NCBI GenBank assembly: GCA_014871385.1
Contig: CM026429.1
Span: 6,483,080 to 6,547,079 of the forward strand
From: Ceratodon purpureus
Taxonomy: Eukaryota > Streptophyta > Bryopsida > Pseudoditrichales > Ditrichaceae
Length of the DNA: 64,000 nt
Direction: 5' to 3'
A program made the translations under genes and the position numbers. The notes beneath the pieces were generated by a model. The model searched no databases, was not told the DNA's origin, and saw only the letters and a program-made list of their open reading frames with translations. This document shows positions 7,216-55,451 of this stretch, piece by piece. Numbering within the stretch: the stretch's first letter is position 1; each line of letters opens with the position of its first letter.

Positions 7216-7270
7216 ACAGGTGGCAATTTACCGGGAGAGGATTAAAAAAATCAATGATCAATATATATTA

Positions 7271-7343
7271 CTGTCTTTATTGCGATCATCGAGCCAAACA
7301 GCCTGGGGAACGACACAATCTACAATGTGCTTCAAAAGGTCCC
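7271..7343 (-). promoter_or_regulatory. Conserved 3' flanking/3' UTR block of the first GS1 gene
   Basis: This block of about 73 bp, containing TTTATTGCGATCATCG and AACGACACAATCTA, recurs with few changes at 21984-22056, in the same place relative to the second GS1 stop codon. It lies about 240 bp beyond the stop. The sequence between block and stop is diverged, so the block is either a retained 3' UTR/polyadenylation region or a slowly evolving control element. Confidence 0.5.
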
Positions 7344-7578
7344 TGATCAGGTGGATTGTAAGCGTGAGGTGGATATAAGAAGCGACTGCATAGACCTAGT
7401 TCGCACGCATTGTTCAGCTTCGGAATCAGAAGCTCAACACGCAACTCTCCATCCACCGAAGAATGCGCAGCGCCAAGACCAACGACCACAAATATGTAAA
7501 AAAAAAGCTGAAAATATCCTACAAGTGACCAATGCACTCCGAGAGCGAGAAAATGAATACAATCATGACCGTCTGCTC

Positions 7579-9538
7579 CTACTTGGCTTCCTCGGGCTTC
7601 CACAGGAGGGTGGTGTAGGCGATCATGCCGCACACCACGTAGGGGTCCATGTTGGAAGATGGCCGGCGATCCTCGAAGTAGCCCTTGCCCTCCTTCTCTG
7701 TGTCACGTCCCACACGGACTGAGGCTCCCCTGTTGGCAACTCCCCACGAGAAGGTGTTCATGTCAGCGGTCTCGTGCTTGCCTGTCAACCTCCTCTCGTT
7801 ACCCTCACCGTATGAGGCGATGTGCTCCTTGTGTCTCAAACCGAGCTTCTCGATGGCCTTCTTGATCACCTCATAGCCACCCTCCTCACGCATGGACTTG
7901 GTACTGTTTTAACACACAGTAACAAAGACATGGTCAATAACACCTCAAACACAGACCAGCTTTTCCAATGATTTCTCTTCATTTGCGTCCAAATACAAAA
8001 AAGACAAGCAACCACGTGAAGGGATCCCAAGGTTATGGAACCAATGAACATCAGCCATCAATTCCAAACCACGACCACTGCAGAAAGCTCCGAAAGTTTC
8101 TGAAATGCCCAAAATAGGAAAAAGGCCATTCGTTCCACCAACCTGTAGTTGGTGTGGCATCCAGCACCGTTCCAGTCTCCCTCGATGGGCTTGGGGTCCA
8201 ACGACAGAACAACTCCTGCAATCTCGGTGATCCGCTCCAGGATGTATCGCGCCGCCCACAACTGATCGGCGGCGGCAATGCCCGTGGCCGGGCCAACTTG
8301 GAACTCCCATTGTCCGGGCATCACCTCTCCGTTGATACCACTGATCTGGATGCCAGCGTACAGGCACGCCTTGTAGTGAGCGTTCACGACGTCACGTCCC
8401 CAGGCCTTGTCAGCTCCGGTTCCGCAGTAGTAAGGTCCCTGAGGGCCGGGGTACCCGCCGACGGGCCACCCGAGCGGCCACTTCACGTCCTTCTGCAACA
8501 GCGTGTACTCCTGCTCCAAACCGTACCTGCAGTGACAAGCATGCACATGTCAGCCCCCAGAACTATCAGAGAGAGCAGAGGAGACGATCACGGGTAGGTG
8601 AGCACCATCGTTAAACTAACCCCCGACAGTACGCACACAATGAACACCGCTGAGTAGGCTATGACCTACCACGAAAATGAAACACGCCATAAATTTGTAA
8701 ACGTACAGGACTCATCTCAGTCAAAACCACAAAGACCGAACTTTCACCAACCTCAAGCAGATCGCAAAACAACATGGAGACAACCAAGAGACACACCCAC
8801 GCCACAAACCATCGCCGACGATCATCAAATCCAATTCAGAGCATTACACTGCTATGATCCCCTCCAAAGACAAAACCAACAATGCTGTCTTCTCACCAGG
8901 CATGTATGTCGGTAGAAGACAAAAATAAACCAAAACAGAGAAAAAACATCCCCAAACACTCACAAACAAGAAACCCCTGTACCCTCACATGACACCAACA
9001 CGACGAATTCACGGCAAACTAAACTTTCTAAACGAAAAGACGTGCTTAAAAAAAATCAAAACCCACTCCAGTCACAAACACAAAAACACCAAACCTTGAA
9101 TTGTAAAGAAGACTGCAAAAACAGAGACGGAAAAGCAGAGTTGGAAAAAAAGAAGAAACCATACCATGGCACCTCCTCAGAGACCTCCTTTTTGGAGAAG
9201 ATCTCAGCAGCAGCGGCGCGCTTGTTGGTGGGGATGGGCACACCAGCGGGGGTATACGCATCACAGATCACCAAGATGTTGTTCCCCCTCCGGAACGGGT
9301 CGCGGAAGATGGCCTGCGGGTACAGAATCACCTCACTGTCAGCCCCCGGCGCCTGCCCCGTGCTGGATCCATCGTAATTCCACTTGGGCAACAACTTGGG
9401 GTCCGTCACGGGCTTCGGCAGCGTCCTGGCCTTGGAGCGGAGATCCGAGCCCGACCCACCGATCCAGATGTACTCGGCAATAATCTCCTCGGTGTGATCC
9501 TCCAGGGACAGCGTCAAGAGCTCGTTCAAGGTCGTCAT
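7579..9538 (-). CDS. Cytosolic glutamine synthetase (GS1), copy A
   Basis: Glutamine synthetase (EC 6.3.1.2) joins ammonium to glutamate using ATP and is the main entry of ammonium into plant metabolism. Three exons, 9538-9165, 8526-8143 and 7903-7579, join in frame to 360 residues plus stop, the length of plant GS1. The beta-grasp N-domain contains [10 protein letters not shown] and [14 protein letters not shown]. The catalytic domain shows [31 protein letters not shown] followed by STKSMR across the second junction, [20 protein letters not shown] and [14 protein letters not shown]. Junctions use GTATGG and GTTGGT donors with CAG acceptors. The ATG at 9538 is chosen because MTTLNELL aligns with the known cytosolic start. 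No plastid transit peptide is seen, so the enzyme should be cytosolic. Two introns is few for a plant GS1. The second copy lies 14.7 kb to the right on the same strand. Confidence 0.93.
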
Positions 9539-9598
9539 GGCTGCAATTCTGGTTCTCCCTGCACACACCACCAAACGCACTCCCACAACTTCGAGCGT

Positions 9599-9700
9599 CG
9601 TACACGTCGTGCGGAGCGCGAGCGATGCAAGTGCGAGACTGATGAGAAATGCTGATCGCGGCGCTCTACTTGTGTACTTCACCGATCGTGGACTTCGCTT
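9599..9700 (-). promoter_or_regulatory. Highly conserved upstream/5' UTR block of GS1 copy A
   Basis: This 102-bp block ends about 60 bp before the GS1 start codon and recurs at 24288-24389 upstream of copy B with only four base differences and no indels. The spacer between block and ATG and both introns are far more diverged. The block contains no ATG on the gene strand. Its first part is bounded by GTACAC and GTGTAC, which are reverse complements about 70 bases apart. It is likely 5' UTR or core promoter under constraint; gene conversion is the alternative. Confidence 0.65.
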
Positions 9701-11141
9701 CCAAAAGCTCTCCCCCTCGGATGCCGCTCAACGGACGTTCCACATCGCATCGCAGAAAATTCTTCCTCTTTCCTAGATCTCTTCCCTCAAATCACCCAAA
9801 ATCCTACATATTCCCCCCATTTTCATAGATCCTCCAGAGCCGTGCCTCGCCGAGATGGTTTTGGGTTTACGTTTTGGAGTTCAATTTTCTACAGTTTCTT
9901 TTCTATTTGGGTCCCCAGGTTTGGGCATTATTATCAGGAGAGTGGGCTTAGAAGCGTCAAAAGTGGAGTATGTATGTCGTTTTTAGATTTCAGAGTGGTG
10001 TTCCGGGTGTAGGTGGAGTGAGGGGTTTAGGAGTGGGTGTTGGGATTGGGGTATGAATAGTTTTGTAGTGATCTGCAGATTCTTTGGGTTATTTTTCTTT
10101 TTATGTTCGTGCTATTTTTTTTAATGATGGGGCTATTTTGGCTCGCCCTCGTTTCCTGCAAGTGAATTCGGGTTATATGTGTCTATAAAAAAGGGAAATG
10201 AATTTGGGTTTTAACTGTGGTTATGTGAAGTGGGTTATGTTTTGGGGGAAGGTTTGGGTTATATTGGAAGTCATGGATTATGGTGAAGGTAAAACAGGGG
10301 ATTATCTTGTGTTATTTTGTGCTGTGATTTATGGATGGCTGCAAGCATACAGGAGTTTTTAACAATAAGCAACCCCCAATGGTTGCTAAATTTGTAGGGT
10401 GTTTGGTATTTTTAAAAGATACTCCGGGCGCCAGTCTGGAGGAAGTGGAGACGTGACTTGTCAGGCAATTGATTTGACAATTGACAAAGGATTTGATTGG
10501 AGGATTGCGGCAGACACAGGCTGTGGTGATTCACTTAAGTTTCATTTTTTGTACTGTATTGTTTTCAAGTTTTTTTGAATCTTATTTATTGAAATGTTTT
10601 TAAATAAGACAAATGGAGAAAATTCCACTGCTTTTGTTGAAATGTTTGAGTCCATTGGAGTGCTACTGCTTTTTGTACAATAGTAGGTACTGGTCCATGT
10701 TCAATGTTAGGGTGCAATGAGTTCGAGCTTGTCAAATTCTATGAAGAAGTTGAAATAGCGGCAGGGAAGGTGGATGGAAATGCTTATGTTTATTCTGGAG
10801 CCACTGACTGGCCCGGTGCAAAGTGTGACCGTTTCCATCCCTACTGTTTGAGATTGCACTATAGTCTTTATGTTTGATGTCCTCGTTGACTGTAATACAT
10901 GTCTACAATCGTGAGTATGCGCACATCTGGACCTTGCTATGAGTGTAGGCCTTGCGTTTTTTTCAAAAGAGAATGAGTAAGTAATTCCATGACCACAGAA
11001 AATAAAATTGGGCCAGGAGAAAAGCAAAACTTGTACAATCCACAGTGGACAACAACTTTGGATTGTGGCATGGAGAATTTTGATGCATTGAACTTTTGAA
11101 GAATGACAGGCTATTGAGATTTTAGGTAGGCTTCAGATGCT
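9701..11141. other. Upstream flank of GS1 copy A, no clear gene
   Basis: The first few hundred bases are the likely promoter of the leftward GS1 gene. On the plus strand about 10680-10880 holds one open stretch without a known domain, containing FELVKFYEEVEIAAGKVDG in the frame that ends at the TGA near 10878. Its coding status is uncertain and no flanking exon could be joined. Confidence 0.35.
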
Positions 11142-11384
11142 TTGAATCTGCAATGCTGCATGCACACCATTACCTTTGCAGGGAGCCTCGCCCCTTTTTA
11201 CAAAAGCTTCCAACAATCTGGGATATTGATTGGCAATGTATCAACTCGATGGAATCCAGCATATGGACCAATGGTAATAATTTGGAAAAATTATGAGTCA
11301 GCAGTGGGAATGCCATTCACTAAATTAGAATCAGCGTGGCAAAGAAGACACATGATTTGTGGAAGAATCATGATTGTTGCCTAA
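11142..11384 (+). pseudogene. Degenerate counterpart of the unknown exon at 25621-25863
   Basis: Two blocks match the candidate exon upstream of GS1 copy B: ACAATCTGGGATA near 11213, and TATGAGTCA followed by GGAATGCCATTC near 11293-11320. In the frame used at 25621 this copy meets a stop soon after QKLPTIWD. A different frame is open throughout and ends in a stop at 11384. The simplest reading is that the segment was duplicated along with the GS1 gene and has since decayed. The function of the original is not recognised. Confidence 0.35.
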
Positions 11385-14300
11385 AATATGTCACCACAAA
11401 TCTGTCTTTACACAATATCAGCCCATCCTGTGTTCTATTGTACACAAGTTTCCCCATCTTTGCAGGGGCTGGCAAATAGATCAAAGTATAGAATTCCAAT
11501 GTAACTACTCCGGAAACCGTAAAAACAATCAAATGGGTTCCAAATAAGTGGTTCAGCCTTGTTGCAGGAAGTTGGAGTCCCGCCCCACTTGCCTTTTGAC
11601 TATGAAAGCTCCAAATTGTTCAGTTGAAAATTGAAAAGTGAATTGTAGAAACCGCAAAGACAGAGCTTCAAGTTCTGAGGAATCTGAGCTTCCCAAGCTG
11701 GGAAGAACTCTTGTCCCTATGATTAAACATGTGGCCCAAAATGGTATATTCTTTGTTCCAACTCAGCTTTCACCTCAAAATGGATCTTTCCAACTACTCA
11801 ATATTTTTAACCCTAAAGTTCTTTGACCAAGTTTCTCAAAACATCACTACAAAACTGTCATTTCCAATGCAAAGAGCATAAATGACCCCAAGAAAAAAGA
11901 AATAAAAAAGTTTTTAATTGTAGGATCCTCAATGATATTACTACAATAGGTTGTAGAAAGAGTTTTTTTCACATTTTATAATGTAGGTTTGAGGATTTTA
12001 GCATTTGAAATGAAAAAAAAAAAAAATCTTATGCACCTTTTTTGATAAAGTCAACATGTTTTTACTTTTCTTGAATTGAAATTTTTGCAACATTGATTTT
12101 AAGGATTTTGGACCTCAACATAGGAAACTAAGGTAATTACTTGTATTCCAAATCTTAGAAAGAAGGATCGTGACAAATGCGTATAGTTTTTTAGCTTCTA
12201 TTCATAACAAATGGATAGATCATGGAGCAAGCTCTACTTTGAAGTCTAGTAAGACGATGTAGTCTTAATTTCATGCAATCTTAAAATTGATAGGTTGATA
12301 ATTTTTCTATTAATGGTTTATCCTGAGAATGACGTACTCCTAATTTCTTTGGATTAGAATCCAAGTTTCTTTCTATATACAAATCCTTCATTCAATTATA
12401 TAGAGAGATTTCAAAGCATCAATGGTTTTTACATGATCATAAATTAATTTGTATATAACTTTAAAATTAGTTACAAGCATATTTATCAACAAAATTATTT
12501 TTTGATGTTTCTAAAAATAAACAAATAAATAAGTCTTATTTACAATTGAAGATGCCTCTAATCATCTATGATTGTCACATAATAAATTGTTATTAAACTT
12601 AGTCTATTCTTATTAATAATAGATTCAAATATGGAAATATTGATTGTGGAGATGCAGAAAATATATGACCAATGATTAAATGTAACATCAAATATACCAA
12701 AACCAAATTACAAAATTATACTAGTTAATAAATAGTATTCGTCGGCCCCTTTATTTGTAAGTCCTTTCATTACTCATAAACCAATCCTAAAAAAAAATTA
12801 CAAAAAAAAATTATGTGTCTTTTTAAAACACACAATCATTCTTATTATTCAAAGGGTTGTTTAAATTGTTTGGATTTCTTTAGTAATTTTTAATGTATCT
12901 TTTAATACATGGTTTTGTATATCTTCACACAATGCATATTATAGATGCATTCATACTTTGTTCCTGAAATCCTTAAAATTTTGAATTTAAATTTTTTTTT
13001 TAAAAAAACCAACCAAAAATTTATATATTTCTAAAATGTAAACTTTGAACCTTAAACTAGTAATCAATGCCAAAGCGTTTTGGCACATCATGGTAATTTT
13101 ATATATTTATGAGTGTACTATTATAAAATCATACTTTTGATATGAATTTTTAGTTTTTCATTGGTCATTAAAAATTCTATATCAAATAAGATAAAAATAT
13201 AATTTGATAATTACATTATCAAAAATAATACTTGGAATATATAACTACTTTGACAATGAAAAAACACCTTGATAGACTAAATGTATAAGTTTATTTTACT
13301 ATGTTATTTTATAATGGCTTATAGAGATGAATTTGCATGGTGACCGTAGGTGCCAATGATTTGCAATGGTCGATATTCCAATCCATAGTCTAAAATAATT
13401 CAATTTGATATGAACTATTAAAATATTGAAATTTTTATAATACTTGAATTTTAATTTAAAAATAAAATCCATGAAACTCCTTATTTAAATATCGCTTTAT
13501 AAATATGTAGAAAGAATTTCAGAAATTATAGATTTTATAGAGATATATGGAGTATTGTAAATTTAAAAAATTTGACTGGATTTCTTTGATTTCATAGATT
13601 AATTTTTATTATTTTAAAACAACATTATTTTATAATCTATAATAATGAGTTCAATCCACCTTGTTCAGTGAAGATGTCTTAATTACTTAATACATAGATA
13701 TAAGGTTGCATAGGATTTAAATTATTTCAATAAAATAAAATAAATAATCTACATTAAAGTAAATTAATTCTTTAATAAAAAGACAAGTTTGCAACCAATT
13801 AGTCCAAGTTTCAATTGTATATAAAACCTTTCATGCAATCAAATTTATGTATCTTTTCAACATATGCCTACCTTTAATTTTATCTGAATAATTAATTTAA
13901 GACTTTTTGAAGTTTCTTTGGATAGCATGTATGCCCATTTCTATGAAATTTACATTTTATATATTTTTATATATTTTTTACATGTGCATGTTATAATACA
14001 TTCATACTCTCTTCCTAAAATTCTAAGAGGGATAGGAGTTGAAAGAGGGAGAAAGATGTGGCACTTAAGAAGAAAATAGTTGTTTCCAATATAGTAGAGA
14101 GATATAAATTATGAAAGTTCAAAAACGGTTTTTAATTGTTATTTTTAATATTAAATTTGAAACTAAAACTACTACAGTCAATGTAAAAGTCTTTAATATA
14201 CTATGAAAATTTTACATATATATTCATATATTTTCAGAAGAGAGAATCATCTTAGTGCCATGGACCAACGTTTTAAAACTGCTGAGAGTCATCTTAGTGC

Positions 14301-15385
14301 TATGGACAAGTTTTTGAAACAAAATATGCTATAAATTCAAATAATAGAACAAATAACAATCTACTAAGCAAAGGTGATTCCACCCCATAGCATATTTATT
14401 ACATTTCAAAAAATTATTCAATCTATTTTGAAAAAAAACAAGGTTTGATTTGAAGATTTTACTTAATTTATTTAAAAAATATAGTTCTTATTTATTTTTT
14501 AGTATGAAATCACCACAAATGACCTCAAAAGTAACAAAATATTACAAATTATTAATGGAACACATTGTAAATGGTGAAAACAAAGAAAAGATGATTATAA
14601 GCGTTGATAATAAATACAAAAAGTCACAAAGCTATGGAGTAGAGTTCATACATTGATGTAATTAATTGTTTTTGAATTATGATTAATATTCATTATCTTA
14701 TTTTAATTCAGTATGTTAGCACAAACTAGACCATTCATCAACTTAAGATGAACCGAAGAGTAAAAAAAGGTTGTCAATAAGTACAAATTTATCTAGTCCA
14801 TTAGACATACTTAAAAAAAAACATCTTGAAATGGGTAGCCATTGTCAAATTGTATGTGAGAAATTAATAACATCAATTATTAATTAAAATTAATATCTAA
14901 AGGAAAATTGTCTACATTTGGGTTTTTTTGAATTTAAGCATGTACTTGCGAATTCAAATTACATTGCAAATTTCTAAAATATGAACTAAAAGGAGGCCGT
15001 TTCAAGAGTTTTGTGTGGATATATTTTTAATTTTTTTTTCCAATGTAGGAATAAGAACTTATATTGCTTTAAGAATGAAATTATGTTTTTGGATAACTAA
15101 GGCAAGCCCAATATCTAATGAGGAGGTTTGGTGTAATCTAACGTTTTGGGTGGACATTTATCCTTTGTTGAACCACTTTTAATGTGTAGTTGTTTGGAAA
15201 ATGGAATATGCATGGTTGGCATAAAGAGCCAATTTATTGAGGAAAACATATGGATTAGAAGATGCCCTCTATCAACATTTTGCAAAGTGGAGAAATTTCA
15301 CCCTTCAAGAGGTCAAAGTTTGCTAAGATATACACACAAATAATTAAGACTTATATAATATATACAGACAAATAATTGAGACTTT
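11385..15385. other. AT-rich gene-free stretch
   Basis: Very AT-rich DNA with many homopolymer runs and no credible open frame. A short direct repeat containing TCATCTTAGTGC then ATGGAC occurs twice near 14245-14310. No transposon ends could be paired. Confidence 0.5.
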
Positions 15386-15884
15386 CACTACTGGAAAATT
15401 CCTCTGAAGCAACGTTTGTCGCCGAGCTATATACACTAAAGCCCCAGAATTTCGAAATGTAGAAACCTTGCTACGGTGCCTCTCAATGCGTCGGAAGTCG
15501 TAAGCGACGCTAGAGGGGTCGCTTCGAGCGTTCACTTTGAATCTTGGGAACGTCGTCATCGGGCAGCCAATGATCGTTTTCTTTGGGCAGCCCGGATCGT
15601 GGGAGGATAGAAGAGGCATTGTGGAGATGTATAAATTTGGGGATAGATATTGATGTGTGTAGATGTAAAGATGGAACCATGGGCGCTGGAGATCCGCAAT
15701 CTTTGGCTCTATACCCACACTGTATCGTCCTCCAGTAGAAACAGTGCTTCGGGCTACAAAACGTCGCTTCGGTCCCAGGTTGCTGACTCAGAGACCCTGA
15801 ACCCCGAATAAATTCAAAAACGCTGCACTACTGTACCCAAACGTTGCTTTTAAATGTGGTTTCGGAGGCTAGTTTCTTGTAGTG
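15386..15884. mobile_element. Small non-autonomous CACTA (En/Spm) element
   Basis: The left end reads CACTACTGGAAA and the right end reads TTTCTTGTAGTG, whose reverse complement is CACTACAAGAAA, the well-known plant CACTA terminus. Three-base TTT target duplications sit at 15383-15385 and 15885-15887, the size made by CACTA transposases, although a T-rich site makes this weak support alone. Subterminal repeats of AAGCAACGTTTG and ACGTCGCTTC type occur in both orientations near the two ends, as expected for transposase binding. At 499 bp it has no transposase and must have moved in trans. Confidence 0.88.
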
Positions 15885-15887
15885 TTT

Positions 15888-16543
15888 TATAGTACCAAGC
15901 TATATTTTTCATTGGAAATTAATTTAATATTCCAATTTACATTTAAAATTTATACTTAATTTTTTTTCTGTCTAATTTTCCTTCTTTCCAATGGTTATAC
16001 AAACCAATTCCACACAAACCTTACATACAACTTAATTTATGTGTCTTTTCAAAATATATGACATGTTTTATTACTTGAAGTATTATTTATATGTTGTTTG
16101 AAATTCCTCAATTAGTTTCAACATGATTTTTATACAATCCTTTTATGACATGCTTGTGTATATCTTCAATAATCAATGAATCCATGATTATTTAAAAATA
16201 TTTAAAAATTAAAAATTACCCAAGATTCTATATGTTTTAAAAGTCATAGATTTAAATCTAAAACTAATAGTTTATGCAAAATTTGTTTGGCACCTAATGA
16301 AATCTTTATCTGTTTATATTTTGTATTTTTACAAAATGTATATTTTAGCATATAATTATGTTTTATTTTACTATTATAATGAAAATCACTTTAAATATAT
16401 GTGTGTTTTATCAATGCAAAAATACCTCAATAGTATGGATGTACAAATGTTTTTAGGTGCACTTCTTTATAATGACCTAGAGAAATTAATTTGCATCTAC
16501 GGCGCCAATAATTTGCGATGGCTCATAGGTCTCTGCATAAGTA
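15888..16543. other. AT-rich spacer
   Basis: AT-rich sequence with one 85-codon open frame at 16297-16554 that is low in complexity (Tyr, Phe, Met rich) and shows no domain. Not called as a gene. Confidence 0.45.
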
Positions 16544-16548
16544 GTATG

Positions 16549-16857
16549 TGTTAGGCAGTGAGAAATGGAGGTGAGGCCATAATATGCATCAAAGAGAGTG
16601 AGGGCTGGAAAGCCCTTACTTTATATATGGTGGAGAGGTGTACATCCAGCTGCCATGGGCGTCATCATCATAAATGGTGCACTAACTAATCTGTTGCTTT
16701 ATATAGTACGGTGGGTTAGCGGAGGAATCAGTTAGAGATTGAGTTGTTACCGGGAACAAGGGAATTAGGAACAAGGGAATCAGGAACAAGGGAAGGTGAA
16801 GCGTCTCTTGAGTGGATGATATACCCCGGAGTGGGGATGTAAGTCTTTATCTCAACA
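16549..16857. mobile_element. Solo LTR of an LTR retrotransposon
   Basis: The element begins TGTTAGG and ends CTCAACA, giving the TG...CA ends and short TGTT/AACA inverted termini of plant LTRs. It is flanked by a perfect 5-bp duplication GTATG at 16544-16548 and 16858-16862. At 309 bp it has no internal domain on either side, so it is a solo LTR left by LTR-LTR recombination. Inside are a TATATAG promoter-like box near 16700 and three tandem GGAACAAGGGAAT-type units near 16755-16797. Its GC content contrasts with the AT-rich flanks. Confidence 0.88.
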
Positions 16858-16862
16858 GTATG

Positions 16863-19800
16863 TATAAAATTTGAAATAATATTTTAACTTTCAATATTTT
16901 GATATTTTAAAATAAAAATCATAGATGCATTTATAATGTACGTCGTGTGAAGAAATATTAACTTAGAATAAGTAGGCTTTTAAAAAGAATATTAAACAAT
17001 TTCAAACGATATATACACAATTCTTTAAACAATACAAAAAGTTGCATGGTTTCAAAACAAATACATAATTTAAGCTTCATCTGGATTTTTTTTTTTATAT
17101 AATTGATTAATAATGCACAAACAAGCAAAGTGACATTTTTTTAACAATATAGATTATTATCCATTAAGAAAGTTTATAACTCTTACCTCTACAATGTTTT
17201 TAAAACAATGAATAATAATTCCATTGAAGAGAAAGTTTTTTATTTTTATTTTTTGCATATGGAAAGATTTGGTGATTTTTGCACATTATTTTAAAAAATG
17301 GGAGTCTGATTTCTATTTTGAAAATGCTATAAAAATATAATATTTTCCAGAATTATCTAAATTTTAATTTTGATATTCTTTTAAAAGTGAAATAAATCAT
17401 TTAAATCATTCAAAAATAAATAAAATCTATCTTTAATGATGATTAGTTTTCTCGATTTTTAGAATTAAAGTAAAGGCCAAAAACCTATGCATGTTGATTA
17501 TGGAACTTAAATTTATAGTATAAATTAAACAGTGTCTCTTAGTCCCCTGATCAGCCAAAGTCCTAGAGTGGGCTTTTTGACATTTTGGGTAGGTTCCTAT
17601 AATGTCAATTTTGAGTATGAGTTTCTAAAACTTTTTGCAGATGTAAGCAATTGCAAACAAATTGCGGGATTTATTTTTTATTATTTTTTAATTGTTTTTG
17701 GGTTTTGCACTAAACATTGGAAAAAGTATTTATGGTGTCCAAAATTTTGATACATCCTTCAATTACCTTTGGGATATTTTATGCAAGTAATTATCATGAT
17801 TGGCTTTGAGATTATTAAAAATAAATAAAAATCTTATATTACAGAAGATTTTCATTCTTTAAGGAGCCAAAGTTTTATCATCTTTTTTGGTCATGTTGAA
17901 AAAAATAATTCTTTATCACATAAAAGATAGAGATTTTGTTTTTTTTTTCTACTTCAAGAAAAGACATAAAGCTTTGTTTTAACTCGATGGATTTGTATTC
18001 TAACAAAAAATGATTTATCAAAAAAATAGAATGAGTATCAACAATAACATAAATTCATGTTCCTTATACAACGTTTTTCACAATGCTATATCTTTTTTTT
18101 AAATACAAAATTTGGTGTACAAGTAATTAACATCATTTATATCATATGAATACAAATCCCCTAACTTGAATAGTGCAAAAAATTTACACAAAAAGAAGTC
18201 AAAGTCTGTTGATCCTTTTTGGAAAGAATAAAAACAAACAATGTTTAATACTTCAAACTCTATAATCTTCTAATCCAAGCAGTCAAATTTATTGAATCAT
18301 GATTTTTTTACATGATCTTCTAGAAGTCTTAACTTAGATTCTATAATAAAAGATGCAAAGAAAGATTTAGTTTTGGTTTGTTTACTCATGCTTGAGAAAT
18401 GGTTGATTTTTGAATGTTGTTGGTGAGAAATGGTCAACGCCAAGTAGGGATTAATTGTCAACCACAAGCCAATTCCAACAAAAGCATAATTGAAATATAA
18501 TTTACATCTATATTTAAAATGATAAATCTTTTTAACAAATCAAACGGTTTTTTTATGTATCGATTTCAAAATTTTAATGATTTTCAATATATATTTTTAA
18601 TAAAATCTACTTATTATATACTTATGTTTATCTTCATGCAATGAATTTCATTAATGTATACATATCTGAAAACCTTAAACATTATAAAATCACTTAGAGT
18701 TATATATATTCAAATTCTATATATTATGAAAAAATTAATATTTAAACTCGTTTTTTACTTTCAAGATTTCTATGGTTTTTAAAAAACATCATGAATGTAT
18801 TTTAAGAAGGAATTCACAAACTACTAACAAACTACTAAAAATGATTGGGCATTTCGAAAAACAGAAGAAATAGGTTTTATATAAGTTTTTACATGGAATT
18901 GGTGTCTAGCTTATACGGACAAACATGTTACTTTCATGCGGAGTAAATTTAGACCTTAAATGTGTTGTGGTCCTATGATGCTAAAAATAATTACTATTTC
19001 TTTAGATTTTAAAAATAGATTCTTTAGGTCATTATGTACATTTTAAGCTTTGTTTCATGAGATTCCGGTATATAATACATAATTATAAATTGAATGTTTT
19101 CAATTTCACAAATGCTAACAAAAAATAATTCCAATTGAAAAGAACTCTATATTTTATTTTTCATAATTATAAGAATTATTTCTAATACAACTTAAAGCAT
19201 TAAAGTGTATTCCATATGCATCAATGGTTTTTAAAAATAAATTTTGTTAATACATACTTTTTGTTTCATGAACTCATGTATATGTTTTTGCACAATGTAC
19301 ATTTAACATGCACTCCATTTTTTTTTCCTAAATCATGTAAATTAAAAATAATTAAAATGACTATGAATTTCCTAATTTTGATGTAACATAGTCGATTCAA
19401 AATCTTAAATTATTTTATATACCTTTTTTTTAATAGAGTAGATGCACTAATCATTATTATAATGTGTTCCAATGGTTTGTGATAATTATTTAAAAAAATT
19501 ATTGAAAAAAATTATTTTTTGAAAATGGAAATGTGGCTTTATTTTTGGATCTCAAAATTTCCATGGAATTGAAAACTTTCAAATATTGGAATGGTTTTGT
19601 GAAGTTTCAAGTACTATACTGTTGATGCAAAAAGCTTTTAAGACCATTTGCTAGGTTTAGTGCTTTGAATCAGGTGATTACAGTCTCCCCAGAATATGGT
19701 CTTTAAGCAGCAATGCATGAAAGTCACATGGATAATTTAATGACGCGGGTGCAATCCTCAAGTCCCTAATAAGTCTTTATGGAATACTTTTTGTTACAAA

Positions 19801-20690
19801 TATTATGTTTTGGATTGTGGTGCTAAAGATGAGGTTGTCATCACAGATGATAATTTGTCATAGTCAAGAACCACATTTCAAAAGACTTTCTTGTCATGGC
19901 CATTGCCTAAGACCATTTTACCACAACCAATGACCACCGTGCCATAGCCAAAAATCACTTAGTTGTAGTTAAAGATGAAATGTAATGATTAAATTGATTT
20001 CTTTAGTTTAAATAAGAAATCTAATCAATATCATTATATTTGGAGCTCTTAATTACAATCCGGCCATTACACCTTGACCTTTGTTAATCCTTTATTACAT
20101 AGGATAATTAACAGCAATAGATTCTAGAGCGTTTTTCCACCATGATCGATGTTACCATAAATAGAATATATTAAGTTGAAATTAATTGTAAAATTCTATT
20201 TTCAACTTGTGGATTAAAAAATTCTAAAATTAGATATTCATATAATGGATGGATTGCTAAAATTATAATATATGCTTGAACTATATAATGGGCTCTAAAA
20301 TGGGATTTTTTTGGGGGGGGGGGGGGTGACTTCAAAATTAAGAAATTCAGCAATGACCTCTCTCAACACCTCTTTTATTACTATCTTCTATATTAAGGAT
20401 GAACTTGCATATGATTAAAGTGAATTTTATAACTAAAAGTGACTTATTTATTCAGGGTTTGAAACAAAAATTTACACGTTGAAAATTGAAAGGAGTGAAA
20501 TGTCAGAATATATGCACCAATCCAAATTAAAAAAATTCTTTTCTTCAAAAGGTGCATAAGGTAAATATGCCAATCTAAACTGCAAAATTGAAGTTCCAAT
20601 TCTTCACAAACTCCATGTTATTTGCATTTCTGACGTTGCACTAACCACTTAGTGGTCACTCAGGCAGCAAAGGCATCTGGTCATTACTTG
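16863..20690. other. AT-rich gene-free stretch between the GS1 genes
   Basis: No supported gene. There are many A/T homopolymers and a G13 run near 20313-20327. The part 19840-19980 repeats short words such as CCATTGCCTAAGACCA, CAACCAATGACCACC and CATAGCCAAAAATCAC. It looks like decayed repeat DNA. Confidence 0.45.
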
Positions 20691-20693
20691 TAG

Positions 20694-20761
20694 CAAGATG
20701 GTCTTTGGAATGGCCATGGCAAGATGGTCTTTGGAATGGCCATGGCAAGATGGTTTTTGGA
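20694..20761. repeat. 26-bp tandem repeat, about 2.6 copies
   Basis: The unit CAAGATGGTCTTTGGAATGG plus CCATGG occurs at 20694-20719 and 20720-20745 and partially after that. The first two copies are identical, so this is a recent tandem duplication. Each full unit contains a CCATGG palindrome. Confidence 0.85.
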
Positions 20762-21004
20762 GAGGTGAAACTACAACAAATTGGCTTTGCTGATGGCATG
20801 GTCTTCGGCACAAGGGCACAATACTTGTACAATTTTTTTTCTCACAGCATCAAAAAGCACACCCACGAAACTCAGACTGGCTCTGTTGTCCTGAAGTTGA
20901 TGGAGGCCTTGTACAAAGGTGTGGTAGGGCTCCCAAATTCCAGTTTCAGTGATGCCCAATTGAACCACAGCAAACAAAAACAGAAAACCAGAAAATTCTT
21001 TTAG

Positions 21005-21983
21005 CGCAAGTTAGTTGCATGCCCAGACTCAGGAAGTTTTGTATTCTGTGAGTTTTTGTAGAAAGAGAATTCAGCAAAAAATATTACCTGTCTATTGGTC
21101 AATCGGATGATTTTCTCTGGTTTTGTCATACCGTATGGAGACATTGGACAATTCCAGCATTGGCACTTCCCTCAAGTTTCTGTTGTGCACGTTACTCTAG
21201 CAATCCATATTTGGGACTACAGTGAAAAGATTAAGATTCGTAATTTCATCTTAAGAAGATAATTTTATGCCTTGTAGGTGAATATATGAAAACGCCGCTT
21301 TCAAGAGACAAAGAGTAGACTCTCTGGACTTTCACACTACAGTAAAATGCAAATTATAACTTAGATAAGGACGAAGGTGATGGAAAATCAAGGAGTACCA
21401 CACTGGTAAAAGATATGTTCTCAAGATCAACTTCCACCAACTTTGATTGCATTCGGACAGTGGTTGTGACTTTCACTATAACTGTACTCAGTTGATAGCT
21501 CAACTTATAAATCTCGAAAAACTTGTCTCAGACGGAAGATTCACAAACAAGATCAACTTACGAACCATCCTTCACGATCCATCAAAGTTAGTTGCAAGAC
21601 AAAAGAGAAGAGGAAAACGCCCAGGAAGAAAACAAACAGCACTTCACATAAACATGCTGTCGCAATGTGAGAACCAGCTGAATCAAATACGTAGCTTATC
21701 AACAAAGATATGATTCAATTGATACAGACGGCCTCCAGCAATTGACTGATGTAATACTCAGCAATAATATCCAATTCCAAACGGGATATTTTACTAGAAT
21801 ACACACAATAGTACCAATTTTTAATCGCTGAAAGGCCAGGGACCATCAAAAGAGTCTCTGCAAAGGTGCTAGCACCAACCACCACAAACACACACACCCA
21901 ATGGGAAGTGATACAAAACACAGACAATGAGCCAAGGACAAGTGAACAAGGACAATGAACCGATAAACCTTCAATCTATTGTA
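21005..21983. other. Intergenic, 3' of GS1 copy B
   Basis: Short open frames at 21447-21713 (+, basic) and 21715-21927 (-) show no recognisable domain. No transposon ends could be paired. Confidence 0.4.
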
Positions 21984-22056
21984 CTGTCCTTTATTGCGAT
22001 CATCGCCAAATAGCCTGGAGAACGACACAATCTATCATGTGCTTTCAAAAGGTCTC
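21984..22056 (-). promoter_or_regulatory. Conserved 3' flanking/3' UTR block of GS1 copy B
   Basis: This is the counterpart of 7271-7343. TTTATTGCGATCATCG and AACGACACAATCTA are kept, with small indels between them. It lies about 265 bp past the stop of the second GS1 gene. Retention at the same relative place in both copies shows that the duplication included the 3' flank. Confidence 0.5.
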
Positions 22057-22321
22057 TTATCTTTAAAGTGTAAGCAACCGGCCTATAGACGCGAATGCAG
22101 CAACCGCGATCCCTCGCATGACCCGTCTCGGTATGAGAGTCTACAACAAATTATTCTACTTCCACCGACGAAGGGGCGACGGCACTACGGGTAGTAGCAA
22201 CGACCACATATTTTGTAACAGAGTATCCTACAATGAAAGTGGGAATGAGCAGAACAACCCAAAGTCTGAGAGAATTGATCCTATGAGCAAGAAAATGAAT
22301 CCAGTCATGACCGTCTGCTCC

Positions 22322-24197
22322 CTACTTGGTTGCCTCGGGCTTCCACAGGAGGGTGGTGTAGGCGATCATGCCGCACACCACGTAGGGGTCCATGTTGGAA
22401 GATGGCCGGCGATCCTCGAAGTAGCCCTTGCCGTCCTTCTCTGTGTCGCGTCCCACTCGGACTGAGGCTCCCCTGTTGGCCACTCCCCACGAGAAGGTGT
22501 TCATGTCAGCGGTCTCGTGTCTGCCTGTCAGCCTCCTCTCGTTACCCTCTCCGTATGAGGCGATGTGCTCCTTGTGTCTCAAGCCGAGCTTCTCGATGGC
22601 CTTCTTGATCACCTCGAATCCTCCCTCCTGACGCATCGACTTGGTACTGTTTCAACATAAAAAGGACAACGTTTAGCAATCACTCAGGCACCTGACATGT
22701 AGGAGACAAGAGTTCCGGCACCAAATCAATACGAAGAGTGGAAGAATTCAGTGCACCGAAAGTTTCTACCCACCTGTAGTTGGTGTGGCATCCAGCACCG
22801 TTCCAGTCTCCCTCGATGGGCTTGGGGTCCAACGACAGAACCACTCCTGCAATCTCGGTGATCCGCTCCAGGATGTATCGCGCAGCCCACAACTGATCGG
22901 CGGCGGCAATGCCCTTGGATGGGCCGACTTGGAACTCCCATTGTCCGGGCATCACCTCTCCGTTGATACCACTGATCTGGATGCCAGCGTACAGGCACGC
23001 CTTGTAGTGAGCGTTCACGATGTCACGTCCCCAGGCCTTGTCCGCTCCGGTTCCGCAGTAGTAAGGTCCCTGTGGGCCGGGGTACCCGCCGACGGGCCAT
23101 CCAAGAGGCCACTTCACGTCCTTCTGCAACAGGGTGTACTCCTGCTCCAAACCGTACCTGCAATTCCGAAACAAGCATTGTCAGCGCCAGCGAAACGCAC
23201 TCTCAGACAAAGACACTCAAGAACAATTTACAACTGATGCATTTTCAATGCAAGCCGAGACAGGGGACAGGAGAGAATTTGCACATCACTCCTCCTCATC
23301 TACCACTCACTACCGAGTTTCAACAGCAGACGTTAGCAAGCAGGCCACATCAATCGGGGACCCACTTCTCCAACCGCTGACACAGACAGAAAATTTCGCC
23401 TTGATGCTCCAAGAATTGTAGCTTTCTATGTCGCTAAGTACTAAGTCAGACAACTACATCACAAATCACTGCTCTTCATAGCATACGGCCATAGAGCCAT
23501 AGCAAGCAATGAGCTAACGCCTAGGACGTCCGCAATTAAGTCGAACATTGACGGCACTCACTACTCTGGTCAATGAATTACAATAGAGAGGGGGAAACAT
23601 AAAAAGACGGGCTTCTCAATCCACCAAAAAGGACACCTCACCCCACACGAAAGTAGGAAACCCTCACATCACCATCGGAGCAATTGAGAAGCGAAACAAT
23701 AGCCTAAAGCCCCATAAACAGAGAAGCTACTCTCGGAGACAAAAACCAAAAACCCCAAAGCTAGAATTCCAGAAGCCACAAACTCCAAAACCAAAAAGCG
23801 GCGAAAACAGAGAAGAGCCATACCAGGTCTCCTCCTCGGCGACCTCCTTGGTGGCGAAGATTTCAGCAGCGGCGGCGCGCTTGTTAGTCGGGATGGGCAC
23901 ACCAGCGGGGGTGTATGCATCACAGATAACCAAAATGTTGTTGCCCCTCCTGAACGGGTCGCGGAAGATGGCCTGCGGGTACAGAATCACCTCACTGTCA
24001 GCGCCGGGCGCCTGTCCCGTGCTAGATCCATCGTAATTCCACTTGGGCAACAACTTGGGGTCCGACACCGGCTTCGGCAAAGTCCTAGCCTTGGAGCGGA
24101 GATCCGTGCCAGACCCGCCGATCCAGATGTACTCAGCAATAATCTCCTCGGTGTGATCCTCCAGGGAGAGCGTCAACAGGTCGTTCAAGGAAGTCAT
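22322..24197 (-). CDS. Cytosolic glutamine synthetase (GS1), copy B
   Basis: This gene makes the same enzyme as copy A and has the same architecture: exons 24197-23824, 23157-22774 and 22646-22322, again 374, 384 and 325 nt and 360 residues. All family motifs are present, including [66 protein letters not shown] and [14 protein letters not shown]. The protein differs from copy A at scattered, mostly conservative sites (MTSLNDLL against [20 protein letters not shown] against [17 protein letters not shown] against GPATG, EGGF against EGGY). Both look functional. Introns of 666 and 127 bp do not resemble those of copy A. An in-frame TAA just upstream of the ATG fixes the start. Copies A and B could assemble into the same GS1 decamers if co-expressed, which is inference. 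Confidence 0.93.
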
Positions 24198-24287
24198 GGT
24201 CGCTAGTTAGCTAGTAAATTCACACACCCAAACAAAAACTGTTCTTCCTGCACACAGCACCAAACGCTTCGCTACAAGTTCGACTGC

Positions 24288-24389
24288 CGTACACGTCGTG
24301 CGGAGCGCGAGAGATGCAAGTGCGAGACTGATGAGAAATGCTGATCGCGGTGCTCTACTTGTGTACCTCACCGATGGTGGACTTCGCTT
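24288..24389 (-). promoter_or_regulatory. Highly conserved upstream/5' UTR block of GS1 copy B
   Basis: Counterpart of 9599-9700, with four substitutions in 102 bases and no gaps. It sits about 90 bp before the start codon, against about 60 bp in copy A, so the block is kept while the spacer has changed. It is the best candidate in the window for a functional non-coding element. Confidence 0.65.
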
Positions 24390-30369: not shown

Positions 30370-31572
30370 TTATTGGTCGATGCAGCGCAAGAGCATAGGT
30401 ACGACTGTTTCAGGCGCACTCAGCTGCGGCAAGTGACCTTCGGTTTGCAAGAGCTCGACGGTCGTCGATCCTCCCAAGTGTTTTCTGAAGTACTCTGCCA
30501 CTTGAACTGGAACAGTGATGTCCTTGATACTTTGAACAACATGACACGGCACTGTAACCTGTACATTGTTCAAAATCAGCTCAGTTTCAATATTCAGGTT
30601 CAGGACACCAATAAATTGTAATCGAATTTCAAAATCAAATCAAGGATCTCCGAGTAGCACAATCAAAGGACATGAAATCGACTCCACAGCCAATCTGTCC
30701 TTGAATTAATCTCTTCACTGAATTAGTCTCTTTCTTGAAACTGTCCAATGCCACAAGCCGCCATGTCCACCAAAGGAGCAGAGCAAGGTTGGGAGCATGT
30801 TATACCTGTGGCAAAATGCTGCGAAGATCGCTTTGAAACACGGCTTGCAAAATGTGCACTGCAACCTCCGGCTTAGTTTTAGACAACGTGCGCCGAAACT
30901 CTTGTACAGCTCTACTGTTCACATCCGCCCCAACAGCCAGTGGAGCAAACGCGGTAACCCAAGCTTGGAAATCAGCTCTCATGCTATCATACACTTGATC
31001 AAGGTCCTGTTGCTCAAATCCCCCGACATAAGACTCGTCATTCAAGTACCTGTCAAAAAATAGAAGCACCATGTCAACCTCCACAATGCCTGAACACTCG
31101 TCTCATTCCATATCTGAAACGCAAAATTTTAAACAATCCAGTGCGAGCAAGAGTCGGCATCCTACCGATTCGGCAGTGCGAGCAAGAGTCGGAAGTTCAC
31201 ACAGTACCTTGGAGACGCACCCAAGAGAATGAGTTTTTCAAAAACTTCAGGCCGCTCAATAGACGCGGTACAACCAACCATTCCCGACATGGAGTGCCCG
31301 ACATACACACAGCTCTGAATCTCCAACTCGTCCAGAATGGCCAGCAGATCGTCGGCGTGTGCGTGGTGGGTCGAATAGCGCTTGAAGTTGAAGCCGTCGG
31401 TGTTGGTTGAGCCGGCTCCCATTACATCGTAAAGAATTACTCTGAGATCCTTCTGCAACAGAGTCGGCACAATGTGCTGAAAACAGGATTGGTCCGTCCC
31501 GAATCCATGTCCCAGTACCACTACTCGGCTGCCGCTGCCCAGGACCTTCACATTATGCGTTGCCAGCACCAT
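30370..31572 (-). CDS. KAI2/D14-like alpha/beta hydrolase
   Basis: KAI2/D14 proteins are alpha/beta hydrolases that bind and cleave butenolide signals (karrikin-like compounds, strigolactones) and signal through an F-box partner. Three exons, 31572-31208, 31049-30806 and 30558-30370, join in frame to 265 residues, close to the roughly 267-270 of the family. The oxyanion region is VVLGHGFGTDQS, the nucleophile is Ser94 in GHSMSG, and Asp216 (SIKDITVPV) and His245 (EGHLPQLS) complete the triad. The lid contains GGFEQQDLDQ and AWVTAFAPLAVG, and the core has IFQSDLR-like VFQSDLRSILPQ. Junctions are AAG|GTACTG, CAG|GTATAA and two CAG acceptors. Two introns differ from the single intron common in angiosperm KAI2. 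Whether it belongs to KAI2, D14 or a lineage-specific clade cannot be decided by eye. Confidence 0.92.
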
Positions 31573-34540
31573 TTTGCCGGGCCGGCCCTACCAAGAATCA
31601 AATCCTCTGATCCGCTCAATGACTTTGTCACTGTAGTGTAGTCCACCCAACCGACGTATACAAGATGTGTTCAATAGCCTTCAAGCTGAAGTTCCTGTGA
31701 ACTATGTGGAACACTCATGCATGATCTTCATGTCCAGAGAAACGGAGAAGCCGATGTCTGATGTTTGTAAATCTGTATTCCAAGCAACGATCAGAAAGTC
31801 ATTCTCTTGTGCAAGGCTTGGAATTCAACTACAGCACATAGAACTTCAACGTAGCAATCTCATACGCCTGAAGAAGATACAATCAATACTTGCTAACACA
31901 CGCTCACCAAAACAGTAGTACCCAGTATTCTAATTGCAAGTGCATTTTCTTCTACAGACTGTCAAGCTCAGTCTGAGAAAAAACTCAAAATTGATCAGGA
32001 GGTGCTCCTGAGCTTGTAGTTTTCGCAGTGTAATGAAGTTAGTATGCTTGTAAGTTGTGTCCTCAAAAAAATCAAAAAATAATAATAATTACAAAAATTA
32101 GAAAATCAGTAAAATAGTGCTCAAAACCCATTCAGCTACGAGCAACCGACCAAGAAGCAGAACTCATGACTGGAGCAAGGAAGTAGAGAATTAGAAACAC
32201 TGACCTAGTGGGGAGCGAAGCCGGCGATGATCGACAGTGGGATGGAGTAGTAACTAGTACACTAGGATGCGAGAAAGGAGGTTTAATAGCAAATGCGGGA
32301 AGCAGGGACGGAAAGACTTCAAGTTGAAGTTGGGACCCAACCTTGCAACGACTGAGGAAACGGTGGTCAGCTTGCAGTTGTGTGCGCTACTAGACACGAG
32401 AAAATCTCCGAACGATCATGTCAACCTTGACGCCCATGTTTCTACTTATGGCATGCGAACTGCCGCTGAAAAGGCCTAATTCGGCATTTTCTGCCACGAA
32501 TCCGATTTCCTCTCTCGCCGAAATCTCTATCACGACTCATCTCCGATTCTGTCCATTTAAATCGTACGTTGCATGGAGTTCGTTGCGTTGGCCCTTGGGA
32601 AGCCCTTTCCACATTTGAGCTTCAATTCTTTTGGTGATGGACCCTGAGTCACCCTCCGCAACAACAACTTGAAAAGGAACAAACAAAAGAGGTCGAAGAA
32701 AGGAGATTCAGCTTTAGATTTCAGTGTCCGACCATGCAAGTCGGATTTCCAATGGTTTGGATTCTCATGGAAAGCGAATCGGAGATCTGATACTCGTGGA
32801 AATATGTGTGATTGAATTGTTGGAAAAATTCATTTGATTTCTTTTGATGACCTCAAGTTGGAACTTGGTTGTGACATCATCATAGTGGACAACTTCATGT
32901 TGTTTTAATATAATAAGTCTTCGACTGAATGATAACTTATACACTTGGATTTCATACCTGGCATTCGCATGACATGATGCCTTTGATTGACCTCAGATTG
33001 TCATCTTTGTGTTGCAGGAATACTGTATGAAAGGAGTTTTTGTGAGATTCTAATGTGCATGGCGGCTTGCAACAGGTTCAACTTGTTGCTCAAGATTTAT
33101 GGGCGCCCATAACTTGAAATCTGTGTTGCAAATGTAGTATTATAGATATTAAGTTATATTGAGTTACCTTTATTGTTGCGAATTCCTTTAAATTTAGGGT
33201 GTCACAAAATGGTTTATTTTTATAGGATTTTACTAATCTATTCAGTAGAAACATTTCTCTGATCCTTTTTTTTTTTTTTTTTTTTGGTGTTCCATGCCGT
33301 TTTCTAAAGATGAGATTGTATTATCATATTTTGATGATTTCAACATTGTAAACTTCTAATGAGTAAAAACCAATATAATACAATTGAACATGAATCATTG
33401 ATTTGATATTCCTGTTTGATAAACTTCATAAATACAATTCATAGCAATCAAAATATTTATACTATTTTGAATCCATAGTCAATTAATGAACTTTGCAAGG
33501 ACCAAACCAATAATTGAAAGTGAAAGATTACAATATCTTTCTTAGATGGTCTTTAATGATATGAAACTATTCATTACCAATGGATTGACCTCCTCTTTAA
33601 CATTCATTTGAACTAAGCTTCTACACAAACAAATAAATATATATTTCATTTTTTTTTGTGTGTTGAAAGTGGATTTAATTATAAAAATTTGGAATATTTT
33701 ACAATACTTTGGGAAGTAATATTTATATGAACTTATGCCCCCTTCCCACAAGTGGTTTAGAAGATGGTACAATGACAGAACATCGGTTTTACACGGAGAG
33801 GGGAGGGGGGGGGGGGGGGGGGTGGGAGAAGGGGGGTGGATAAATCCTGAACCGAGTCAGCAGCTGAGGTGGCATATCTTTCTGGTCGAGTTAACTACGG
33901 TTATACTGCTGTAGTAGCATGGTGTTAGGAAGTGGGCATGGAAGGAGCCTACCTTCTGATAATAGTAAAGAAAATCTTATTCATGTAGAGGTTTGGAGAG
34001 TGAAAGGAATATAGAAGTTAAGTTTTTAGTTTTCTCCAAGTTTATTACGTTGAAACCGCAAGACATTCGGCTACTATGTAGCTATCCGGTGGGTTGCCGA
34101 GCTAACTGCCCTAGGTGCTAATATTTCACACGGCATTCATAAGAGCTGTGCTACAAGAAAACATGCTTTCGGTACTATTTTGTTTCCTAGACTACTGTTT
34201 TATTGCATGCTTTAGAGGCCTCGATAAATCTGTTGCTTCATTTGCAAGGTGGAAGGACTCCTATCAATGGCCGACTCGGTGTTGCACCTACAGGCAAAAT
34301 TATATCAACCGTATAAGTGAGCGCACCTTGTTTTTTTAATTGAATGAATGCAAAAGTATTGTACAAAAAATGCCACACTTTGACATACATCATGAGCATT
34401 TCTAGAAAAGGTTGAGGCACTCTGCCGAGAATTTTTCAACATAGAATGAACTACTGTTTACGGTCACTTCCATTCTACATAGGCACTCAGTTTTAGTTCA
34501 GAGTGTAGAGCTTACATCGGACCTTGAAGGTCTGGTCTTG
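31573..34540. other. Intergenic, upstream of the hydrolase
   Basis: The first few hundred bases should hold the hydrolase promoter. Beyond that no gene is supported. A long T run lies at about 33269-33286 and a G-rich run at about 33797-33822 (see separate entry). Confidence 0.4.
33790..33840. repeat. Poly(G) tract
   Basis: A nearly uninterrupted run of more than 20 G with a second G6 run after it, on the plus strand. It can form a G-quadruplex and is a likely site of length variation or sequencing error. Confidence 0.8.
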
Positions 34541-37300: not shown

Positions 37301-37980
37301 TTACATCGCCAGTAGCCTCTCTAACTCCTTTGCACTTTGTCCTAAAAGCAAACTATGCAAAATGCAACAACATACGACAACATCTGATAGGAGCGTTACA
37401 TATTGAAGGTCAGATGCACTGTGTAAGTCACGAAAGGTTTGCTTTAGAATGCCAAATGCATTCTCAACGACACTTCTTGCCCTTGACAACTTGCGATTGA
37501 ATAGGGTCTCTTGCACAAAACGTCGGCCACCTAATATGTCACGGTAAGGAGTAATGAGCCAGGAGAAAATCGGATAGCCTTTATCTCCTATGAGATATGG
37601 GATAGAACTTTCAAGCAAATTAGCAGGGTCAATTTTTTTTGTTGTAATAGCCTTATGATAGAGCATTGACCTCCGCATCTGACGTGCGTCATTTGTAGAG
37701 CCACGCATGTCCATTGATAGATTGATAAACTTCTTGGATCGATCAATAGCGGCCTGGCACTGCATAGTGAAGCCACCACTTTTAAAATAAAAGTAAAATT
37801 CAAGGCTTTGATTTGGTTTTTGAATGTGAAAATGAATGCCATCGATGGCCCCAACAACTCTAGAGAGCCCCGAAAATACTCTGAACTGCGCCATAGTTAG
37901 TTGGAGACGCTGCCCAGTGGGCCACAAGATTTCATGATGGATCAGTTCGTCATTAATGGCTTTTACAACATCATGAATGA
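37301..37980 (-). pseudogene. PIF/Harbinger DDE transposase, N-terminally incomplete
   Basis: The open frame encodes the catalytic half of a DDE_Tnp_4 (PIF/Harbinger) transposase. The three acidic residues are visible: Asp in VVGAIDGIHF, Asp in LIGDKGYPIFSWL and Glu in ARSVVENAFGILK. The frame can be extended upstream from 37927 to about 37980 (HDVVKAINDELIHHEILWP), which matches the segment before the catalytic core in this family. Beyond that the helix-turn-helix N-terminus is interrupted by stops; a separate frame to about 38125 is open (EVAVSFLVSYKTQIEHC). The core is intact enough to look recently active, but no full-length start exists here. The termini of the element were not found. 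Confidence 0.8.
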
Positions 37981-38125
37981 TGCCTTAGGCGGGACTGGTC
38001 CCTCACTAGTAGGAATCTGGTCCAAGAAGGCGGTGGCATAAATGACACAATGTTCAATTTGCGTCTTATATGATACAAGAAATGACACAGCAACCTCGGA
38101 GATAAACTTGCTATGCACTGCTGTT

Positions 38126-46500: not shown

Positions 46501-47944
46501 AGATGAGCTCATCAAATTGGCTTTTCTCATGGATGTCATCCAACACAATCAATGTTGGACCTTTGCTCCATAACTTGTGAAACCAATAACTATAACTGTG
46601 ATCATTGCAATTTCGAACATGCAAAAGATCCCAGAGTAGCTGATTCTGTAATTTCTCCACCATACTTGAAGAACCCAGAGTTGAGCTATGATCAAGTGTC
46701 AAAAAACTCATAGCTTGAAACTTCTGGTGATTTACAAAATGGTTGTAAACCAGCTTGGCAAGAGAGGTTTTACCAACTCCACCCATACCCACAAGGCCCA
46801 ATAAACATGTGGTATTGGATATCATCTCCAATTTCTTGACGCATGTATGGACATGCTCTTCAACACCCACCATGCACCGATCAACTTGCAATGCCTCAAA
46901 TGAAGGTGTCAACTTGCTCAATACGGCACCCACCACTTCCCGTTTCAGTTCGGCTTCATCACTGCGCTACCAAAATCAGCCATTAGTACTTCATAAGTTT
47001 CCCCACTCATTCCAGCATTCATACTTAGTTAAAATGGACTGAAAATTGAATGAGGCATGCCCTGAAATAATCGATACAAGTGATAATTGAACTCCTAATC
47101 ATATGACCGGTGTATCATGACACTGCTTACTCTACACTCCTGTCTAGTACAAAATGCATGCCTGTGACAAGAATAAACTTTGGGTTTGGCATGACTCTCG
47201 TGCCAAAGAATACCCTCTAGTTCTGCATGCCCATGCCTTCGACAGCAAAAGTACAGCACTGCTGTAACTATACCTCAATACCAAACTCAACCATGGCTAG
47301 TGATGCCAACAACGTGGATTACATTTCAATCAAGTCAAGCGCAATCTCAGCACGAAACAAACTTTTCTTCCGTAAGGTACAAACATATCACGTAAACTTG
47401 AAGAGAGAGATACTCACCCCTTGTAATCAGACGGACGATAGCAAAATCCAGTGATGTCCGCCAACTTCCGAAGAGCATCTCTCCATTCCTCCACTTGCTT
47501 CGGTGTTTTCTTAGACTTGTGTTTCTCAAATGCCGCTGCAAACGGGCCATTCTCCACCCACCGCAAGTCCACAGGCTCCACCTCGTAGTACACAGGTATT
47601 ACTGGTTTTCCGCTCATCATCATGGCCACCAATTCATTCAGGCAATACTTCGACTCTGCGTATCCTTTCGAAACAACTGCAACATGGATCTTCGCCACTT
47701 CCAGAGCGTCATTTATGGACCTGAAAGCAGGATCCCCCTTCCTCAAGGATGCCTTGTCCAGAAACGGATTCAACCCAGCGTCCCGAAGTGCTTCATCCAA
47801 ATGGGCCACGAATCCAACTTTCACATCAGGCCCACGGTGGTTCAGGAACACGTCATAGTCCACGTTCATGGCTGCAGAAGAAGAGCATTGCCCTCGGGGA
47901 CGTTTGCAAGGCCGCCTCCATGTTTCAAGAGCCCGGTCGTCCAT
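43517..47944 (-). CDS. TIR-NBS-LRR immune receptor (TNL), four exons
   Basis: TNL proteins detect pathogen effectors and signal through TIR NADase activity. Exons 47944-47418, 46961-45824, 45683-45399 and 44656-43517 join in frame to 1029 residues. Residues about 26-165 form the TIR domain: DVFLNHRGPDV, the BB-loop segment PFLDKASLRKGD, and CLNELV with the expected catalytic Glu. The NB-ARC domain has the P-loop GMGGVGKTS (about 234-242), kinase-2 LIVLDDIHE, RNBS-B GSCIIVTSRNRH and GLPL in CGGLPLALKVVGSSL. The usual MHD is MHG at about 522-524. Exon 3 carries a C-JID/early LRR-like segment (LRWLQWRNMPSKHLPPRF). Exon 4 has about eight LRRs of the LPNSIGQLSRLQVLDL type. Introns are 456, 140 and 742 bp, with GTGAGT, GTAAGT and GTATCG donors. 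An alternative start at MNVDYDVF would drop 25 residues. Confidence 0.92.

Positions 47945-54933: not shown

Positions 54934-55451
<518 letters not shown>

Follow-up and report, generated by a model that had tools for sequence, protein, structure and literature searches.

Why should a short piece of non-coding DNA stay almost unchanged between two genes whose introns have drifted far apart? This question is raised by a 64,000-nucleotide (nt) stretch of the Ceratodon purpureus genome (contig CM026429.1, positions 6,483,080 to 6,547,079; hereafter the window, in whose own numbering all coordinates are given), where two tandem genes of the glutamine synthetase GS1 type each carry a 102 nt block upstream of the start codon. 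The block was regarded as near-invariant in a preliminary description of this DNA, and the alignment bears this out: on the minus strand, the copy at 9599–9700 (61–162 nt before the ATG of gene 1) and the copy at 24288–24389 (91–192 nt before the ATG of gene 2) are identical at 98 of 102 positions, with four differences (sense positions 14, 23, 39 and 78) and no gaps. We interpret the block as the start-proximal 5′ leader of moss GS1, probably held under purifying selection for transcription initiation and/or translation, a reading to which we assign a probability of about 0.65.

The comparison that carries this interpretation is between the block and the silent sites of the genes beside it. 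It had been proposed beforehand that simple recent duplication would be indicated if the silent sites matched as well as the block does; they match less well, as 37 of 161 four-fold degenerate sites differ between the two genes against 4 of 102 positions in the block (Fisher P = 1.6e-5). The difference holds both for exon 1, which lies beside the block (19 of 53 four-fold sites, P = 3.3e-7), and for exons 2 and 3 together (18 of 108, P = 0.003), these P values being descriptive only, because the block was picked after inspection as the best stretch. Across the coding sequence 47 of 361 third codon positions differ, and the silent divergence of the pair (dS) is 0.22 by NG86 and 0.30 by maximum likelihood. 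Introns have fared worse still: expressed as matches over the longer length, intron 1 aligns at 0.587 (shuffled 0.557, standard deviation (sd) 0.011) and intron 2 at 0.397 (shuffled 0.376, sd 0.012; 30 shuffles each), little above the shuffled baseline, so that there has been time enough for unconstrained DNA to drift apart. With silent sites and introns both far more diverged than the block, the pair is not simply a recent duplication, and that explanation is ruled out. Similarly, the best ungapped 102 nt match reaches 50/102 in intron 1, 43/102 in intron 2, 53/102 in the 600 nt of 5′ flank beyond the block and 61/102 in 700 nt of 3′ flank, although ungapped scoring understates the gapped similarity of the flanks, which does exist on the 3′ side. 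Among coding windows of the same length, 298 of 982 show four or fewer differences. An identity of 98/102 is hence exceptional for non-coding DNA at this locus and ordinary for its coding exons, and the block is less diverged than both the silent sites and the other non-coding DNA of the pair, as a conserved noncoding sequence is expected to be. Codon-usage constraint is a possible confounder of the silent-site comparison, the G+C content of third codon positions (GC3) being 0.79 and 0.78 in the two genes; of the 37 four-fold changes, just 13 keep G+C unchanged (9 C/G, 4 A/T), and as most alter it, such constraint is not demonstrated.

Conservation extends beyond the 102 nt on either side. In a gapless profile anchored on the block and read in 20 nt steps, identity is 2–8 of 20 between −200 and −61, rises to 11/20 at −60 to −41 and 15/20 at −40 to −21, falls to 9/20 at −20 to −1, stands at 18–20 of 20 in each of the five steps that cross the block, then continues at 13, 17 and 11 per 20 past position 100. 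From this profile the block emerges as the centre of a conserved 5′ region larger than itself, and a second island lies upstream. Introns and spacer had both been described as strongly diverged, which is right for the introns and only partly so for the spacer: in the 60 nt between block and ATG in gene 1 (9539–9598, minus strand), 36 of the 47 nt adjoining the block are identical to gene 2, and a 30 nt length difference follows, the spacer of gene 2 measuring 90 nt (24198–24287, minus strand). A dispersed repeat was considered and rejected, since self-BLAST of the window (E 1e-5) places the block at these two sites only. A 22 nt core of the block had no exact match in viral and prokaryote contigs, a search from which the genome of the window itself may have been excluded and that is uninformative for plants.

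The genes themselves are as complete as the preliminary description had them. Both lie on the minus strand and have coding exons of identical length (374, 384 and 325 nt) separated by GT..AG introns; in gene 1 these are exon 1 at 9165–9538, exon 2 at 8143–8526 (with a Pfam Gln-synt_C match on the open-reading frame 8058–8549) and exon 3 at 7579–7903, and in gene 2 they lie at 23824–24197, 22774–23157 and 22322–22646, respectively. Their products are 360 amino acids (aa) long and differ at 18 residues. The gene 1 protein matches glutamine synthetase chains in PDB, which we take to be plant GS1 (best 4is4_A, query 1–356, E 1.8e-213), and its 360 aa agree with the size of full-length plant GSII (about 356–361 aa). 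Query residues 1–356 align to residues 1–356 of 7v4h_J, which fits GS1 lacking an N-terminal transit peptide. Relatives were also found in prokaryote contigs, where the best 80 of at least 573 confirmed matches are all titled bacteria or archaea (identity up to 56% among the matches listed), and in viral contigs (best 80 of 187 matches, identity up to 53% among those listed). Both genes classify as the plant cytosolic type (GSII), probably without a transit peptide, although one encoded on a spliced upstream exon is conceivable. Each coding sequence (7579–9538 and 22322–24197) is interrupted by two introns only. Angiosperm GS1 genes have many more, and the small number here may stem from loss of introns or from an ancient retrocopy at the origin of the moss genes.

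How might such a block be maintained? We propose that an old tandem pair of cytosolic GS1 genes has kept its transcription-start-proximal region, that most of the block would be transcribed and form the beginning of the 5′ leader, core promoter elements being located at this leader or immediately 5′ of it, and that purifying selection after duplication would hold it nearly constant because it carries sequence needed for transcription initiation and/or efficient translation. Neither copy of the block contains an ATG. Going upstream from the start codon, the first ATG is met after 207 nt (gene 1) and 242 nt (gene 2), 45–50 nt past the block; with none nearer, block plus spacer would make up a leader free of AUG, 162 nt long in gene 1 and 192 nt in gene 2. 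These lengths, counted from the block edge, are consistent with the annotation of Physcomitrella patens, for which one study gives a median of 157 nt for 5′-untranslated region (UTR) exons and 258 nt for whole 5′ UTRs (PMC3729371). The patchy profile upstream (15/20 at −40 to −21, then 9/20) fits what a footprint of separate elements would look like. In the middle of the block, TCAGTCT presumably resembles an initiator. At the other end of the genes, the first 350 nt of 3′ flank align at 0.674 (shuffled 0.553, sd 0.016), and the two copies share a conserved 3′-UTR stretch, at 7258–7345 in gene 1 (AATAAA at 7277–7282) and at 21971–22060 in gene 2 (AATAAA at 21990–21995), both on the minus strand and aligned to each other. 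These are probably polyadenylation regions, and the patches around the block and around AATAAA place conservation near both expected ends of the transcript.

Several points weigh against the leader interpretation. With two copies in one window, constraint rests on a single comparison; no TATA box was seen upstream of the block, which was inspected by eye only; an ATG-free run of about 200 nt is only mildly unusual; and gene conversion limited to the block predicts an identical pairwise pattern. A stronger version, in which the block is a moss-shared, GS1-specific leader element that tunes expression post-transcriptionally to nitrogen or glutamine status, is speculative and, in our estimate, improbable. 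Among the paper titles listed in literature searches, none describes the block, nor does any describe control of GS1 by such an element.

The preliminary description had left the choice between a functional 5′ UTR or promoter module and gene conversion; the module stands as the best reading, whilst conversion is less likely. As the main rival, short interlocus conversion would have copied approximately 100 nt of upstream DNA between the copies, leaving a block under no special constraint. Silent divergence is indeed uneven, four-fold sites differing less often in exons 2 and 3 (18/108) than in exon 1 (19/53, P = 0.009), and codon-usage constraint is not shown to be an alternative cause of this unevenness, given the 13 of 37 changes that are G+C-neutral. 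Gene conversion has also been proposed among tandem Physcomitrella genes, as cited in PMC3045890, and the likeness lies in tandem genes with highly similar stretches; here, however, homogenisation has not reached the introns, a portion of the spacer or the silent sites of exon 1. A conversion tract must stop within or before the spacer, because no exon is more diverged at silent sites than exon 1, and silent sites of the coding sequence stay identical over runs of 35 at most (expected 31.1, P = 0.28), which gives no sign of a long tract there. The four differences are moreover scattered over the block, so any conversion would not be very recent, and on balance we consider this explanation unlikely. 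Conversion mediated by mRNA (cDNA), which would spare introns, was considered and rejected, as it is at odds with the unequal spacer lengths, the silent divergence in exon 1 and the gaps in the 3′ UTR.

Other rivals assign the block a different kind of function. Most of it could lie in a 124 nt 5′-UTR intron, conserved for intron-mediated enhancement, with a candidate donor CG|GTGARG at sense position 19 and a candidate acceptor TGTGTGCAG whose end lies 40 nt past the block. Both genes share identical candidate splice sites and the 124 nt length, and in P. patens 39.2% of transcripts with a 5′ UTR have multi-exon 5′ UTRs, according to PMC3729371; however, the same source gives a mean 5′-UTR intron length of 520 nt, against which 124 nt is short, the T content of the candidate is 0.24 in both genes against 0.36–0.42 in the four coding-region introns, and position +5 of the candidate donor is A in gene 1, and we give this explanation little credence. 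A structured regulatory RNA, closed by a GTACAC/GTGTAC stem, is very improbable. The inverted pair had been placed at one boundary of the block, and both its members are in fact inside it (plus strand 9600–9605 and 9672–9677 in copy 1). Both copies retain the stem, which also features in the two sense-strand minimum-energy folds, yet the folds are no more stable than those of shuffled sequence (z-scores for the two copies −0.32 and +0.80 in sense, +0.12 and −0.68 in antisense), the fold energy is weaker in copy 2 (−21.2 kcal/mol) than in copy 1 (−28.5 kcal/mol), and two of the four block differences hit pairs of the copy 1 fold, uncompensated. Inverted pairs of 6 nt occur at chance frequency, with two in copy 1, one in copy 2 and a mean of 1.17 in shuffles of copy 1 (n = 500), 30% of which reach two; the proposed RNA stem is thus not supported. 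Rfam 15 gave no match in the window at gathering score, and none at E ≤ 1 in 9500–9860, which covers the region of copy 1 only. An antisense C/D-snoRNA (CTGATGA and CTGA) was considered by eye and dismissed, as by the usual rules for such RNAs the two boxes lie too near each other and the first one is remote from the end stem. Translation of the block, whether into an N-terminal (transit) extension or as an upstream reading frame with a non-AUG start, is scarcely credible: one sense frame stays open across the block in each gene, continuing in gene 1 into the GS1 frame, but in that gene it has no methionine upstream of the GS1 start, in gene 2 it meets a stop before the GS1 ATG, and the four block differences divide into two amino-acid-changing and two silent.

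Conserved noncoding sequences adjoin plant genes and their duplicates as a general class, and the block resembles them in being a near-gene, non-coding patch less diverged than silent sites and introns; it differs in that here the evidence comes from two paralogous copies in one window. A conserved promoter or leader patch beside duplicated metabolic genes is in this sense expected rather than surprising. Another likeness, drawn by title and not by sequence, is with the soybean cytosolic glutamine synthetase beta1 gene, another plant cytosolic glutamine synthetase leader with a proposed role in expression, whose 5′ UTR is a translational enhancer according to the title of Ortega et al. 2012, as cited in PMC6508842. 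Should the block prove to be a constrained leader, it would offer a short, easily tested region governing how a central gene of nitrogen assimilation is expressed in a moss, and would suggest that both tandem copies have kept the same control and have not diverged.

Elsewhere in the window, the minus strand encodes a fragment of a KAI2-like alpha/beta hydrolase at 31162–31587. Its top four sequences in PDB are PpKAI2-like H, E (two entries) and C, where we take Pp to denote the moss Physcomitrella; this match hints at a moss as the source, to the extent that one protein fragment and the range of solved structures can. Segments with TIR, NB-ARC and LRR domains at 43517–47962 (minus strand) represent a probable TNL-type resistance gene, a DDE_Tnp_4 transposase segment lies at 37301–37984 (minus strand), and a C2 domain is also encoded. 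A long simple-repeat tract occupies 54934–55451, where several frames of both strands are open.
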